From: Litoreibacter roseus
GTDB lineage: Bacteria; Pseudomonadota; Alphaproteobacteria; Rhodobacterales; Rhodobacteraceae
Assembly: GCF_009811795.1 (NCBI RefSeq)
Contig: NZ_BLJE01000001.1
Span: forward strand, 1,054,001-1,118,000
Length of the DNA: 64,000 nucleotides
Reading direction: 5' to 3'
Numbering within the stretch: position 1 is the first letter of the stretch; every line of letters begins with the position of its first letter. Positions 6,204 to 39,169 of this stretch are shown here, piece after piece. The notes beneath the pieces are model-generated. The model saw only the letters and a list, made by a program, of their open reading frames with translations. It did no database searches and was not told the DNA's origin. Made by a program: the position numbers and the translations under genes.

Positions 6204-9200
6204 CTATTCCGCAGCTTTGAGCGGCTGTGACCCATGCTCGATCTTCGGGGTTGTCTGTGGAACGACGGCATCGTCCTCCGTCCAGATTAATAGCGGGTCA
6301 CGCACTTTGGATGCCTGTTTGCGCAGCAAAAGATCCCGCGCCGACTGCGAGCGCCGTCCACCAAGCGCGCGCAATTGTTTGACGGATGCGTAGGCCCCCA
6401 GTGACAGCCAGACGCGCAAGGCCAGAAGGGCGGGTGTGAAGATCAAGGTCAGAACCGTTGCAATTCCAAGGCCGAACACGACCGCCGTAGCGAGCTGCTT
6501 CCACCAGAGCGCAGTGGGACTGTCCACGGAGTATCCGCCGCCGATAAAGTCCAGAGACAGTCCGAACATCATCGGGGCCAGGCCCGCCATCGTTGTGATG
6601 GTGGTCAGCAGAACCGGGCGAATGCGCGCCTCTGCAGTGCGGGTGATCGCCTCCAGCCGGGGCATGTATTGGGAATATTCCTGATAGGTGTCGATCAGGA
6701 CAATGTTGTTATTCACCACGATACCGGCCAGCGCCACGATGCCTGTCCCGGTCATGATGATCGAAAAGGGTTGATCCATGACCAGCATGCCGATCAAGAC
6801 CCCTGTGGTGGATAGAACGACGGCCACAAGAACGAGAACCGCGTTGTAGAAGCTGTTGAATTGGGCCAGCAGGATGATGAACATCAGGCCAAGCGCCGCT
6901 GCGAAGGCCGAACTGAGGAACGCTTGGCTTTCGGCTTGTTCTTCCGTGTCGCCCGCCCATTCGTAGCTGACGGAGTTGGGCAAAGGGTTCTCGGTTTCGA
7001 TCCAGTCGGTCAGATACGCGATACGCTCGTTGGCATTCATAACGGCGCCGTCGTCATTGGTCAGCCCGGGTGTGACGTCTGCCTTCACATCGAAATAGCG
7101 GCTCTGATCGATACGGTCGATCTGGCCCAGTTTCTTGACAGGCTTGCGGCTGATGAAGTTCGCGAGCGGGACCAGACCATCTGGCGTACGCACCTTCAGT
7201 GTGTCGAGCGTCGACAGAACACGGGAGTCTTCGGGCAGGCGGACCCTGATCTCGATCTCTTCGTCAGAGGTGTCGACCCGCATTTCATCCAACAGCAGCC
7301 CGCGTGTCACAAGCTGAACCATCGCGCCAACCGTGGCCACATCGGCCCCGTAGCGGCCTGCGGCTTTCACATCGACATCTATCTGCCAGTCGATGCCGGG
7401 CAGGGGGCGCGTGTCCTCAATCGTGATCAGGCCGTCTGTCTCGTCAAACTTGGCGCGGGCGATCCGTGTGGCTTCCTGCAGTTCAATCCAATTGTCGCCC
7501 TTGAGGCGCAGGTTGACTGGCTTACCGTCCGCAGGACCCCGGTCCTGAGACAGGATTTCGGTTCGGATGCCGGGGATCCGGTCCATCTTTTCCTGCATCT
7601 CGTCAAGGATTTCGATGTCATCGCGGCGTGTGCCCCATTCGGCCAGTTCGATCTGTATCTGGCCGATTGTATCAAGTGGCCCTGATGCCCCACCTGTGTT
7701 GGTGTCGAGACCTCCTTCGCCAGCGAAGGCGAAGATGCTGTCGATGCCGTCCACAGTTGCAATGACGTCTTCAACCTGTTGCACGACCTGATCTTTTTCG
7801 CTGAGCGACATGTTTCCGCGGGCGCGGACGTAGACAATGGCCTGTTCGGTCTCGCTCTCCACAAAGAATTCGACGCCATTGTTGTTTGCGCTGAAGGTCG
7901 TGAAGGTGACGATCACAAAGGTGATCACGGCGCCGATTGCGACCAATGGCATGACCGGATTGCCGGCAAGGAAGTTGATGAACTTGCCAAAAGCCGACCG
8001 GCGGTAACCTGCGTTGATGCGGGTTTCGCGTTTTGGACGTGACACGGCACCCATGGCCGTTGAAGCAAACATTGCGGCGAGCGTGAAGAAGACGACAGCG
8101 AAGATGCTGGCAAGCGCACCGCCTTCACTGCGCTCGATGGGCAAGATGTAGCTGGGATTCAAAAGCTGCATGGCTGCGATGAACAAAAGCCCGACCCCAA
8201 TGGCGCAGATCGCGAGGCGGACGACGAAAGGCAAAGGGCGCAGCGCGTCGGAGCCATATCCGATCAGCCGTGACACCCGACCGGAAACACCGCCCAGAAC
8301 GGGCAGATAGATCAGCGCCACGATCAACGACGCCGAGAGGACGAAGATCAGGGTGACCGGCAGCATTCCCATGAACTCCCCCGGGACGCCGGGCCAGAAG
8401 AGCATCGGAAGGAAAGCGCAAAGCGTCGTCGCGGTGGAGGACACGATTGGCCAGAACATCCGCTTGGCCGCCTCGACAAATGCCTGCATCGGGCCGACGC
8501 CTTCGCTGATGCGCTTGTCGGCGTACTCAACGACGACGATGGCGCCATCTACAAGCATGCCGACGGCAAGGATCAGGCCGAACATCACGATGTTCGAGAT
8601 CGAGATACCCATGATCCCTAGCAGAATGAAGCATAGAAGGAAGGAGGTCGGTATTGCGAAGCCCACCAGCAATGCCGACCGCGTGCCAAGCGTGGCCAGT
8701 ACAACGATCATCACCAGCGCGATGGCGGTCAGGACCGATCCCTCCAACTGCTGCACCATGTTGGCGACGGTTTTGGACTGGTCCAGCGTTACATCGACCC
8801 GGATCGCGTCTTGCAGATCCCCGGACCATGTCTCGCGTTCCGCCGCAACGGTGTCGCGGACCAGTTGGGAGGTGTCGATGATGTTGTAGCCCTTACGTTT
8901 CACGACCTGCAACGCAACCGTCTCGGAGCCGTTAAACCGGGCGGTCCCGGTGCGGTCTTCGAAGGTCAGACGAATTTCGGCCAGGTCGCCGAGTGTGACC
9001 ACCCTGTCCCCGTTCACCTTGACGGGCAGGTCGTAGATATCGCGGGGCTCATCGAAGGAAGACGGGATCTTGACCGCAAACGCGCCTTGTTCTGTCTCGA
9101 CCTCGCCCGCAGCGATCAGCAGGTTGTTGTTTGTGACCGTGTTGATCAACTCTCCGGCGGTGACGTTGTAGGCCTCCAGCGCAAGCGGATCGATGATCAC

Positions 9201-9752
9201 TTCCAGCATTTCGTCCCGGTGGCCCGCAAGCCCGGCCTCAAGAATTGGCGGCAGTGCTTCCAACGTGTCCTGCAGGTCTTTCGCCACCCGCAGCAATGTC
9301 CGCTCCGGCAGGTCGCCGGACAAGGCTACAATGACAATGGGAAATTCCGAGAAGTTGATTTCATTGATCGTGTATTGATCTGCGCCTTCCGGGAACTCCG
9401 CTTCGGCTTGGGTCATTTTGTCCCGCACGTCTGCGAGAATTTTGGTCTTGTCCCACCCGAATTCAAATTCCAGCGCCACGCCTGCGTAGTTCTCCGACGC
9501 GGTGCCCGTCATCGTTTTCAGACCGTCAAGGTCCTGAAGCTTCGACTCCATCGGTTTGACCAAAAGCTTTTCGCTGTCTTCCGCAGAGATACCGGGGAAG
9601 GGAACGGAGACAAAGAGCGCCGGGATTTCAATATCCGGCTCGCCTTCTTTTGGCAGACCCTGATAGGCGGTCCATCCGATCACGAGCGACATGATCACAA
9701 AGGCAATGATCATCCGGGCACGTGACCCGGCCCAATCGACGATACCTGTCAT
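6204..9752 (-). CDS. RND efflux pump permease with an unusual membrane insert
   Basis: This is a 1,182-residue inner-membrane proton-driven exporter of the AcrB/CzcA superfamily, with an N-terminal membrane helix, the PGISAEDSEKLLVKPME porter element and the TM4 motif GMLVDGAIVVVEYADK. TM4 has a single aspartate (D402) followed by Gly, as in CzcA-like pumps, where drug pumps of the AcrB type usually carry two aspartates. It is over 100 residues longer than AcrB. The excess is an insert at about residues 497-589 with two extra hydrophobic stretches and a polar C-terminal tail of about 65 residues. Its adaptor gene precedes it with a 1-nt overlap. The substrate cannot be read from the sequence, and no outer membrane channel gene is nearby. 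Confidence 0.93.
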   Translation of the reverse strand: MTGIVDWAGSRARMIIAFVIMSLVIGWTAYQGLPKEGEPDIEIPALFVSVPFPGISAEDSEKLLVKPMESKLQDLDGLKTMTGTASENYAGVALEFEFGWDKTKILADVRDKMTQAEAEFPEGADQYTINEINFSEFPIVIVALSGDLPERTLLRVAKDLQDTLEALPPILEAGLAGHRDEMLEVIIDPLALEAYNVTAGELINTVTNNNLLIAAGEVETEQGAFAVKIPSSFDEPRDIYDLPVKVNGDRVVTLGDLAEIRLTFEDRTGTARFNGSETVALQVVKRKGYNIIDTSQLVRDTVAAERETWSGDLQDAIRVDVTLDQSKTVANMVQQLEGSVLTAIALVMIVVLATLGTRSALLVGFAIPTSFLLCFILLGIMGISISNIVMFGLILAVGMLVDGAIVVVEYADKRISEGVGPMQAFVEAAKRMFWPIVSSTATTLCAFLPMLFWPGVPGEFMGMLPVTLIFVLSASLIVALIYLPVLGGVSGRVSRLIGYGSDALRPLPFVVRLAICAIGVGLLFIAAMQLLNPSYILPIERSEGGALASIFAVVFFTLAAMFASTAMGAVSRPKRETRINAGYRRSAFGKFINFLAGNPVMPLVAIGAVITFVIVTFTTFSANNNGVEFFVESETEQAIVYVRARGNMSLSEKDQVVQQVEDVIATVDGIDSIFAFAGEGGLDTNTGGASGPLDTIGQIQIELAEWGTRRDDIEILDEMQEKMDRIPGIRTEILSQDRGPADGKPVNLRLKGDNWIELQEATRIARAKFDETDGLITIEDTRPLPGIDWQIDVDVKAAGRYGADVATVGAMVQLVTRGLLLDEMRVDTSDEEIEIRVRLPEDSRVLSTLDTLKVRTPDGLVPLANFISRKPVKKLGQIDRIDQSRYFDVKADVTPGLTNDDGAVMNANERIAYLTDWIETENPLPNSVSYEWAGDTEEQAESQAFLSSAFAAALGLMFIILLAQFNSFYNAVLVLVAVVLSTTGVLIGMLVMDQPFSIIMTGTGIVALAGIVVNNNIVLIDTYQEYSQYMPRLEAITRTAEARIRPVLLTTITTMAGLAPMMFGLSLDFIGGGYSVDSPTALWWKQLATAVVFGLGIATVLTLIFTPALLALRVWLSLGAYASVKQLRALGGRRSQSARDLLLRKQASKVRDPLLIWTEDDAVVPQTTPKIEHGSQPLKAAE

Positions 9753-36488: not shown

Positions 36489-37034
36489 TCAGGTCTTAAC
36501 CGGGCCAATCATCATGATCATCTGGCGACCTTCCATCTTAGGCATGTTTTCCACCTTGCCCGATCCTTCGACGTCGTCCGCCACGCGTTCCAGAAGTTCG
36601 CGCCCCAGATTGAGGTGCGCCATTTCCCGACCACGGAACCTCAAGGTGACCTTCACCTTGTCGCCGTTCTCGAGGAACTTGAAAACATTGCGCATCTTCA
36701 CGTCATAATCATGCGTGTCGGTGTTGGGTCGAAACTTGACCTCTTTCACCTCGATGGTCTTCTGCTTCTTGCGCGCCTCGGATTCGCGCTTTTGCTGTTC
36801 GTATTTGTACTTGCCGAAATCCATGATCTTACAGACCGGCGGATTGGCATTGGGTGAGATCTCTACAAGATCAAGTCCGGCCTCGGCGGCCATTTCCATG
36901 GCGCGGGCTGGTGTGACAACACCGACGTTTTCGCCGTCGGCACCGATCAATCGGATTTCATCTGACCGGATGCGGTCGTTGACGCGGGGTCCGGTTTCAC
37001 GCACCGGGGGTGCGTTGTGGGGTCTGCGGGCTAT
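36489..37034 (-). CDS. infC: Translation initiation factor IF-3, apparent ATA start
   Basis: IF-3 keeps ribosomal subunits apart and rejects incorrect start codons. The 181-residue protein has the N-domain ([40 protein letters not shown]), the lysine-rich linker region [18 protein letters not shown], and the C-domain ([40 protein letters not shown]). The family N-terminus ARRPHNAPP is preceded by ATA (37032-37034) with AGAAGGA nine bases upstream. An ATG exists at 37100, but it lies inside a likely promoter and gives an untypical Arg-rich extension. A rare start codon fits the known self-control of infC (AUU in E. coli). The hairpin at 36445 follows its stop. Confidence 0.93.
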
Positions 37035-37076
37035 GGCCTCAAGTCCTTCTGTCGTTAAAAATAAAGGTCTGCGCAA

Positions 37077-37104
37077 AACTAAGCGCCGTCGTCGGGTCAT
37101 TCAA
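37077..37104 (-). promoter_or_regulatory. Candidate infC promoter
   Basis: On the minus strand TTGAAT (37099-37104) and TTAGTT (37077-37082) are 16 bases apart. Transcription would begin near 37070, giving a leader of about 35 bases with AGAAGGA before the ATA start. The ATG at 37100 overlaps the -35 element, so it could not be on this transcript. The remaining upstream gap (to 37230) also carries the promoter of the divergent acidic protein gene. Confidence 0.5.
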
Positions 37105-37230
37105 GTCGGTTTTCCGCCGACACATCGGATTGCGGAACATTCGGCTTGGTCTTCGGTTGAGACTACGTGATGCAGTGCCACCGGGGGCGTCAATGCACGC
37201 ATTCTCCCGAAAAGACGAGAGGGAAGATTC

Positions 37231-38289
37231 ATGAAATATCATTTTGTCATTGGTTTGGCAGCGACTCTGGCCGTTGGCGTTGGGGCGTCACATTCAGCTT
37301 ACGCAATGGGCTGGTTTTCTTCGGAAGAGGAAGAGGTCGCACCGCCAGCCCAAGAACCTGCGGACAGCGCCGTCACGGCACCCGATGCAGTTGAGGATCT
37401 TGAAGAGCAGGCTGAAGACGCTGCAGATACGGCGACCGAGACCGCGAATGACGCCGCCGCTGAGACAGAAGACGCCGTTGAAGGTGGGGCTGAAGTCGCT
37501 GATGATGCTGCAGCCGAGGCGGAAGAGGCAGTTGAGGGCGGGGCAGAGGCAGTTGAAGAGACCGCCGAGGATGCGGTGAATGCAACCGAAGGTGCTGCGG
37601 ATGACGCTGCTGCCGCAACCGAAGAGGCTACAGAAAACGCTGCCGAAACCGCTGAAGAGGCCGCCGATGCAGTTGGCGATACGCTGAACGACGCGGCGGA
37701 TAGTGCAGCCGATACGGCTCAGGAAGGTCTGAACGCCGTTGAAGGTGCGGCAGAAGACGCTGGAGACGCCGCCGCAGACGCCGTGGAAAGCGGAACTGAA
37801 GCTGCATCAGAGGTCGGCAATGCTGTTGAAGGTGCTGCTGAGAGTGTCACGGACACTGCCGATGATGCGGCATCTGAAGGTGCACAAGCCGTTGAAGAGG
37901 CAGCGGAAGGTGCGGTCGATGGCGCCGATGCCGTAGAGGATGCAGCGACAGATGCAACGGACACCGTCGAAGAAAGCGCTGCTGAGGCCGCCGAGTCAGC
38001 AGAGGATACTGCAACGGAAGCTACGGAGAGTGACGCATCTGATACCAGTTCCGATGCGGGATCTTCAGATGACGCCGCAGATCAGAACGAAGCAGCGGCC
38101 GCTGAAACAGACGCCGGACCGCTGACTGTTGAAGGGTTTGACTACGACGCCGCTGTTGAGCAAATCGATGCGTCTGACATGAACGTTGTTGCTAAGACTG
38201 CCCTGAAAAACAGCCTTCAGGCCGTCCGCGACAACCCGGATGCGCTGCGTGAAGTGTTGGAGCAAGTGCGGGCTGCAACCGGACAATAG
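37231..38289 (+). CDS. Secreted, extremely acidic Ala/Glu/Asp-rich repeat protein
   Basis: The 352-residue protein has a clear Sec signal (cut after SAYA, residue 25). Then follows a long low-complexity region built of variants of AVEGGAE, AVEGAAED, AVEEAAEG and DDAAAEAEEA. From residue 26 to 321 I find no Lys, Arg, His or Cys. The last about 50 residues form a different, ordinary-looking domain (GFDYDAAVEQIDASDMN, then the first Lys at 322). The repeat has the look of amphipathic or LEA-like helices or an extended polyacid. A GAGGGAAG site precedes the ATG. Function is unknown; metal, calcium or osmotic roles, or cell-surface charge, are possible. It is divergent from infC. Confidence 0.85.
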   Translation: MKYHFVIGLAATLAVGVGASHSAYAMGWFSSEEEEVAPPAQEPADSAVTAPDAVEDLEEQAEDAADTATETANDAAAETEDAVEGGAEVADDAAAEAEEAVEGGAEAVEETAEDAVNATEGAADDAAAATEEATENAAETAEEAADAVGDTLNDAADSAADTAQEGLNAVEGAAEDAGDAAADAVESGTEAASEVGNAVEGAAESVTDTADDAASEGAQAVEEAAEGAVDGADAVEDAATDATDTVEESAAEAAESAEDTATEATESDASDTSSDAGSSDDAADQNEAAAAETDAGPLTVEGFDYDAAVEQIDASDMNVVAKTALKNSLQAVRDNPDALREVLEQVRAATGQ

Positions 38290-38313: not shown

Positions 38314-38338
38314 GGTTAGGCGGCACGTCCGCCTAGCC
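38314..38338. terminator. Hairpin between convergent genes, containing the fpr stop codon
   Basis: GGTTAGGCGG-cacgt-CCGCCTAGCC forms a 10-bp stem with one G-T(U) pair, 25 bases after the acidic protein gene. The fpr stop codon (38333-38335) lies within its right arm. There is no T-run on either side, so it is a probable but atypical shared terminator. Confidence 0.55.
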
Positions 38339-39169
38339 AACGAACGCCTTTTCGACCACATATTCCGCCGGTTCCGAGTTCGCGCCTTCGCGCAGGCCGA
38401 ACCCTTCCAGGATTTCCTTCAGGTCGTTGTTCAATCCAATGGACCCGCACACCATAGCGCGGTCAGTTTCCGGTGAAATCGGCGGCACGCCCAGATCAGT
38501 GAACAACTCCCCAGACTTCAGTTTTTCGGTAATACGGCCCATCTTGGTGCTCTCTTCCCGGGTCGTCGTCGGGTAATATTTCAGTTTTCCGGCAACCATT
38601 TCACCGATCAGCGGGTCGTTCTCCAGTCCTTCGACCAACTGACGGCCGTATTCCAGTTCCGCCACATCGCGGCAGGTGTGGGTTACGATGACCTCGTCAT
38701 AGTCTTCGTAGGTCTGCGGCTCCCGCAACAGCGACGCGAACGGGGCGAAGCCTGTGCCGGTCGAAAAGAAGTAAATCCGTTTGCCGGGCAGAAGTGCGTC
38801 GTGAACAAGGGTGCCCACGGGTTTGGGGCGCAGGATAATTTCGTCACCGACCTGAATGTGCTGCAGCTTCGACGTCAGCGGGCCATCCTGAACCTTGATC
38901 GAATAGAACTCCAGCTCATCATCCCAGGAAGGTGACGCGATCGAGTATGCGCGGAGCAAGGGTTTCGTGCGCCCAGTCGCGGGGTCCGGATCACCCATAA
39001 GCCCGATCATGACAAACTCGCCGGAACGGAAGCGCAGGGATTGCGGGCGTGTTACCCGAAAGGAAAACAGGCGGTCGGTCCAATGCGTGACAGAGGTCAC
39101 CGTCTGGGCGTCAGGCAGGGTCGGGACGGGTTTGGCTGTGGCGGTGGTCACTGTGGTCTGCTCGGTCAT
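38333..39169 (-). CDS. fpr: Ferredoxin--NADP reductase
   Basis: Fpr moves electrons between NADPH and ferredoxin or flavodoxin. The 278-residue enzyme has the FAD motif LLRAYSIASPSWDDELEFYS, the NADP pyrophosphate motif YFFSTGTGFAPFASLLREP, AMVCGSIGLNNDLKEIL, and ends EYVVEKAFVG as bacterial-type FPRs do. It is the last gene of the sulfite reduction operon, 60 nt after the DUF934 gene. No cysJ is present, so Fpr with a ferredoxin is the natural electron supply to the siroheme enzyme here; this is inference from the operon. Confidence 0.95.
   Translation of the reverse strand: MTEQTTVTTATAKPVPTLPDAQTVTSVTHWTDRLFSFRVTRPQSLRFRSGEFVMIGLMGDPDPATGRTKPLLRAYSIASPSWDDELEFYSIKVQDGPLTSKLQHIQVGDEIILRPKPVGTLVHDALLPGKRIYFFSTGTGFAPFASLLREPQTYEDYDEVIVTHTCRDVAELEYGRQLVEGLENDPLIGEMVAGKLKYYPTTTREESTKMGRITEKLKSGELFTDLGVPPISPETDRAMVCGSIGLNNDLKEILEGFGLREGANSEPAEYVVEKAFVG

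Follow-up and report, generated by a model that had tools for sequence, protein, structure and literature searches.

In the protein encoded at positions 37231–38289 of the window (the whole stretch of DNA analysed, 64,000 nt from Litoreibacter roseus), as in its homologues, what has been conserved is an Ala-rich helix of net negative charge that is acidic on one side and Ala/Val on the other, in phase over hundreds of residues, and the lack of basic residues is the extreme of a variable trait. The gene is near-universal and syntenic in a highly abundant marine bacterial family, fits none of the families described so far and could not be related with confidence to any known structure, and its product probably has a structural job in the cell envelope. 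It comprises the following features.

37231–38289, plus strand: whole open reading frame (ORF; 352 aa plus stop, ATG start) of an exported, Ala-rich acidic helical protein, from the sequence and from orthologues at the same locus.
37231–37305, plus strand: predicted signal peptide, residues 1–25, MKYHFVIGLAATLAVGVGASHSAYA, with a cleavage-like site AYA/M and then MGWFSS.
37294–38193, plus strand: run of 300 residues without Lys, Arg or His, by residue count.
37378–38046, plus strand: continuous amphipathic helix, residues 50–272, period 3.63–3.65, from periodicity, helical wheel and AF2 helices.
38041–38121, plus strand: Ser/Asp/Ala-rich hinge, residues 271–297, predicted by AF2 to be unstructured.
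38122–38286, plus strand: conserved C-terminal domain (CTD), residues 298–352, a predicted three-helix bundle, from sequence profile A1 and AF2.

The basic residues of the 352-aa protein are K2, H4, H21, K322, K326, R333, R340 and R347 and no others, and Cys is absent from it altogether; the stretch of 296 residues free of bases and Cys described in the initial annotation is real and slightly longer, at 300 aa (residues 22–321). This run holds 93 Asp/Glu and 93 Ala, and the net charge of the mature protein is near −92. Elsewhere in the window, counting ORFs of 150 aa or more, the longest run without Lys, Arg or His measures 121 aa and lies in ORF 6204–9752, whose product was read from its sequence as an RND-type pump. 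At 20 syntenic loci, the longest run has a median of 27 residues over 247 stop-to-stop ORFs. An ordinary protein would therefore come nowhere near a run of 300 residues by chance. As a conserved feature, however, the run had to be rejected, since just 23 of the 102 homologous linkers are fully basic-free, others, even within one genus, being Lys-rich and TolA-like (L012, L019 and L020). Net charge was negative in all 102. The earlier description as a polyanion thus holds for a strongly acidic helix but not for the absence of bases as its defining trait. Long basic-free runs also occur in two further ORFs, one of 290 residues in L031 (11240–13171, minus strand) and one of 288 in L041 (8925–11171, minus strand); both ORFs lie away from the infC-linked position and may not be genes.

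On a helical wheel of residues 50–272, one half is 60–68% Asp/Glu with no Val, Leu or Ile at all, and the other is about 50% Ala with about 20% Val/Leu/Ile. For the window protein the two halves contain 56% and 7% Asp/Glu, an asymmetry inflated by the fitting of the wheel phase to polar residues, and the real test of the stripe is the shuffling of blocks of 8–16 residues, which preserves local order. A significant polar/Ala peak at 3.55–3.75 residues per turn was present in 87 of 102 linkers (median 3.65, quartiles 3.64–3.67). Median spectral power was 25, compared with 7 after block shuffling, and 81% of 98 linkers exceeded their shuffles at p<=0.01; these counts come from related homologues and so are not independent. 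In the window protein the values were 46.9 and 8.8. Charge and helical periodicity, the computation of which the initial annotation had proposed, thus came out as strongly negative and as a stripe near 3.65 residues per turn, a pattern that it had missed. Its recurring AVEGAAE-like units proved loose: order exists as a helical stripe (period about 3.63–3.65), and there is no copied repeat. Tandem Repeats Finder detected a single weak array in the gene (12 bp, 3.5 copies), and tandem expansion of the DNA was rejected as the source of the order; with almost no tandem repeat in the DNA, the coherence does not come from recent copying. Third codon positions have a GC fraction of 0.47 in the acidic linker (37306–38124), compared with about 0.60–0.74 in the other genes of the window.

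Such coherence bears on whether the linker is a spacer with no structural role, its composition free to slide and the CTD alone mattering. Linker sequence and length do vary widely, and the CTD is the only part of the homologues that can be aligned, yet the stripe is phase-coherent against block shuffles in about 81–89% of linkers and the helix is kept without the CTD at five loci, which makes drift of this kind very unlikely. Heptad coiled coils have a period of 3.5 and hendecads one of 3.67 (PMC4786415). With a period of 3.63–3.67 the stripe therefore runs nearly parallel to the helix axis, near the pitch of a straight alpha-helix, a geometry fit for a flat surface or for a bundle that is almost straight or has a slight right-handed twist.

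A flat surface could be a membrane, with the helix lying on it Ala/Val face down as in apolipoproteins or phasins. The straight stripe fits, and 11 of 28 homologues gave weak Pfam matches to Apolipoprotein and 9 of 28 to Phasin_2 (best 3e-8 and 2e-7). For the window protein, however, Apolipoprotein scored 17.6 bits against a curated cut-off of 90 and Phasin_2 gave no match at E<=1, the resemblance probably reflecting shared helix composition, large residues are scarce on the apolar face, most of which is Ala, and the flanks lack basic residues to meet anionic lipids; we regard this reading as quite improbable. An ice-binding helix of the type I antifreeze kind, with an Ala/Thr face in a marine bacterium, would by analogy share the straight Ala-rich face with Thr/Ser and the near-11-residue periodicity. 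It is barely credible here, as Thr and Ser are equally frequent on both faces (median 0.157 versus 0.149), so that there is no Thr ice-face, and the distribution tracks the phylogeny of one family and not cold habitats, judging by organism names.

The main rival is an unfolded acidic polyelectrolyte, an LEA-like protectant or cation buffer that would become helical only with salt, at low pH or on drying, and whose charges would hold water and divalent cations. The number of acidic residues, the net charge of the mature protein and the negative charge of every linker are all in keeping with it, as is the existence of LEA-like disordered proteins in bacteria (PMC8096337). Group 3 LEA proteins have 11-mer motifs (PMC12871917) and share the 11/3-like periodicity; an 11-residue periodicity was found here (median 3.65, close to 11/3), a necessary and not a sufficient mark of that group. 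No LEA model in Pfam, LEA_4 included, matched the window protein at E<=1 or any of 28 homologues at E<=0.01, however, and the LEA-like helix suggested in the initial annotation finds no backing there. A pure polyelectrolyte, moreover, needs no phase-coherent stripe over 200 and more residues, several homologues are Lys-rich, and codon adaptation is ordinary (0.57, versus 0.71–0.77 for EF-G, EF-Tu and GroEL), so that very high abundance is not indicated and codon use lends no support to very high expression. A polyelectrolyte is a real but minor possibility.

The AF2 model of the full-length protein, built on a 28-sequence alignment, has helices at residues 50–148 and 154–270 (pLDDT about 50–75), an unstructured hinge and a CTD at about 82–95. 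Ala/Glu-rich segments are commonly predicted as helix by AF2. A TonB_2 protein of the same genome was unsuitable as an Ala-helix control, not being Ala-rich. Modelled alone, the CTD is a three-helix bundle (pLDDT 85, pTM 0.64; about 90 pLDDT within the full length). Its 55 residues matched no family in Pfam or NCBIfam; Foldseek against the PDB and viral models returned nothing below E 0.6, the matches being generic three-helix bundles (affibodies, paramyxovirus P domains), and the best match of its sequence profile in the PDB (E 0.0079) was an apparently designed protein.

The proposal that a C-terminal domain of about 50 residues is the conserved part was confirmed by its family-wide conservation at residues 298–352. 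Searching with the C-terminal residues alone, as had been suggested, was productive: the 55-residue CTD as a single sequence retrieved orthologues in 29 of 61 genomes, and a profile of 30 sequences found it in 236 of 295 Rhodobacteraceae genomes (91 of 113 genera) and not once outside the family in class and phylum samples of about 280 genomes per draw. In the loci examined the gene order is nearly constant, with infC divergent, the acidic gene, and fpr-DUF934-cysH-nirA convergent. The window protein has every feature by which we define the infC-linked family of the Rhodobacteraceae here, namely the A1 profile, the Ala/acidic helix, an exported N-terminus and the infC/fpr position. Its surroundings are as follows.

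36489–37034, minus strand: infC (IF3), divergent neighbour and conserved synteny partner, with an apparent ATA start at 37034–37032.
37035–37230, plus strand: intergenic region shared by infC and the acidic gene, with a length near 200 nt in almost every relative.
38333–39169, minus strand: ferredoxin-NADP reductase-like gene (fpr), convergent, with DUF934, cysH and nirA/cysI beyond it, all names being read from the sequences.

The apparent ATA start of infC is invariant in all 24 loci in which the RRPHNAP start region was found (the window and 23 of L002–L029), and a family-wide ATA start may be of interest in itself; infC of E. coli also has a non-AUG start, AUU. The intergenic region carries TTCAAGTCGGTTTTCCGCC, which recurs in relatives with minor changes, and no RNA element in Rfam matched it. 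The CTD was not found at four Ruegeria loci (L091, L092, L156 and L157), where infC and fpr are close neighbours. In genome G023 (L030) the gene is tandemly duplicated, a long-linker copy (275–1048) being followed by a short-linker copy of 135 aa (1255–1659). Scanning of the full-length protein against genome contigs confirmed nothing, and a plasmid origin is not indicated, the one match among 72,556 plasmid records being distant and on a 1.58-Mb Pseudorhodobacter replicon.

The helix and the CTD come apart in both directions. Five loci (L089, L099, L110, L115 and L148, of which L099 and L110 are from Leisingera) have the anchor and the acidic Ala-rich helix at the same position without the CTD, and the short frames scanned at such loci gave no match to it, even a weak one. 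Conversely, L127 encodes a 107-aa protein that is CTD with almost no linker, and paralogues elsewhere carry the CTD behind an exported LysM domain (L173–L175), a secreted coiled coil (L177–L179 and L181) or linkers containing Arg/Lys (L176 and L180). LysM scores were 21.3 bits for one of these proteins and 14.4 for another, against a Pfam cut-off of 20.9. The initial annotation had held that the repeat would be dispensable if homologues kept the CTD behind an ordinary N-terminal region, and the LysM, coiled-coil and near-linkerless proteins show that it is; neither helix nor CTD is strictly required. The position of the CTD behind exported LysM supports a periplasmic, wall-proximal place for it. 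Two LysM–CTD paralogues (L183, 5857–6648; L184, 5895–6575) adjoin a gene for a CopD-like membrane protein, L184 also a CopC-like one, neighbours named from their sequences and hinting at a link to periplasmic copper handling. In two genera, CTD paralogues with more ordinary linkers (L189, 5729–6385, containing Arg/Lys; L190, 5448–6122) have phospholipase-D-like genes nearby, and what reads as a CsbD-like start is found at the edge of L189.

Export, as claimed earlier, is supported by N-termini that read as a signal peptide or an anchor. By a rough, pattern-based classification in which some members are borderline, 91 of 103 homologues are anchor-like, 11 signal-peptidase-like (the window protein, with AYA/MGWF, and its nearest subgroup among them) and 1 has a lipobox; Lys or Arg occurs within residues 2–6, ahead of the hydrophobic segment, in 101 of the 103. 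The homologue of Palleronia pontilimi (L114) has a lipoprotein-like signal, LVAGC, so that a lipid may hold this helix and CTD on a membrane. This variable attachment (anchor, cleavable or lipoprotein-like) argues against a strict tether between inner and outer membrane. A TolA-like tether would have an inner-membrane anchor, a helix spanning the periplasm and a CTD binding an outer-membrane or peptidoglycan partner. Most homologues do combine an anchor, an Ala-rich helix and a small CTD, some have linkers of the EEAAKAAEEA type, and the median linker of 194 residues would by arithmetic reach about 29 nm as a single helix. However, the N-terminus of the window protein looks cleavable and that of the Palleronia homologue lipoprotein-like, linkers range from about 35 (L127) to 493 residues, the CTD is missing at five loci, and no TolA/TonB-type C-terminal domain in Pfam matched the CTD, the window protein or its homologues. 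We judge a tether of this sort rather improbable.

The explanation that we favour, if tentatively and at somewhat short of an even chance, is that the protein is exported to the periplasm and forms an acid-coated rod or bundle of helices, which carries a docking domain and serves as an envelope spacer or scaffold and not as an enzyme. The N-terminus, as export signal or anchor, would deliver the protein to the periplasm, where the Ala/Val faces of at least two helices, or of a single helix that turns back on itself at the predicted break near residue 150, would pack into a nearly straight bundle. The carboxylates left outside would be neutralized by cations of the marine periplasm (Na+, Mg2+ and Ca2+), and the CTD would dock the rod onto a partner in the periplasm or cell wall. 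The N-terminus of most relatives would hold the rod at the inner membrane; in the subgroup of the window genome it is apparently cleaved, which would leave the rod soluble or held by the CTD alone. Speaking for the rod are the near-universal syntenic gene, the tight period, the phase coherence, the AF2 helices and CTD, and the LysM association. Against it count the pLDDT of about 50–75 in the helices, an apolar face of mostly Ala, which is a weak packing surface, and a charge density that, where ionic strength is low, would work against a bundle. Given linkers of 35–493 residues, a CTD missing at some loci and the whole gene missing at the Ruegeria loci, the protein is unlikely to be a precise ruler or a scaffold that the cell cannot do without. 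A bolder extension, which we think unlikely though worth stating, is that the family represents an undescribed class of structural proteins of the periplasm, an acid-coated, untwisted Ala-face bundle of adjustable length with a mobile three-helix docking module (also used on LysM proteins), forming an envelope skeleton or spacer specific to the Rhodobacteraceae. If the rod is real, it would offer a clean, length-variable natural system for the assembly of acidic Ala-face helices in the marine periplasm, and the CTD would then be a small docking module not known before.

Family searches miss the acidic helix probably because the conserved quantity is a physical pattern and not a sequence. Like group 3 LEA proteins and the LEA-like proteins of bacteria, BilRI among them, the window protein is rich in Ala/Glu/Thr and hydrophilic, with a helical periodicity near 11/3, but it is nearly without basic residues and joins its helix to an export signal and a folded CTD. 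TolA consists of an inner-membrane anchor, an Ala-rich helical domain II and a C-terminal domain III. Most homologues share this overall architecture, and some linkers are in TolA's Ala/Glu/Lys style; the family differs in its 55-aa three-helix CTD and unconstrained linker length, and the window protein in a linker without Lys and a cleavable-looking N-terminus. The peripheral stalks of rotary ATPases are hendecad, right-handed helical stalks (PMC6131620), and the b subunit resembles our protein as a long anchored helix of Ala and charged residues with near-11/3 periodicity, but it has another compartment and partner, no sequence relation was found, and charge is far more one-sided here. Ag473 of Neisseria is a short, exported, Ala/acid-rich helical repeat protein; the window protein is longer, has a CTD and lacks the lipobox Cys, and it falls outside the Ag473 lipoprotein family (NF047840; 17.9 bits against a cut-off of 100). 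DalA (RSP_1200), an envelope lipoprotein found mainly in Rhodobacterales and uncharacterized until recently, binds peptidoglycan and is a proposed divisome scaffold (PMC10470522). Likened by description only, it is an example of the role that such an envelope protein can have, although at about 18 kDa and in the outer membrane it is unlike the acidic helix protein. Our literature search returned no paper on the infC-linked family, which is apparently undescribed and apparently works like known helical spacers.
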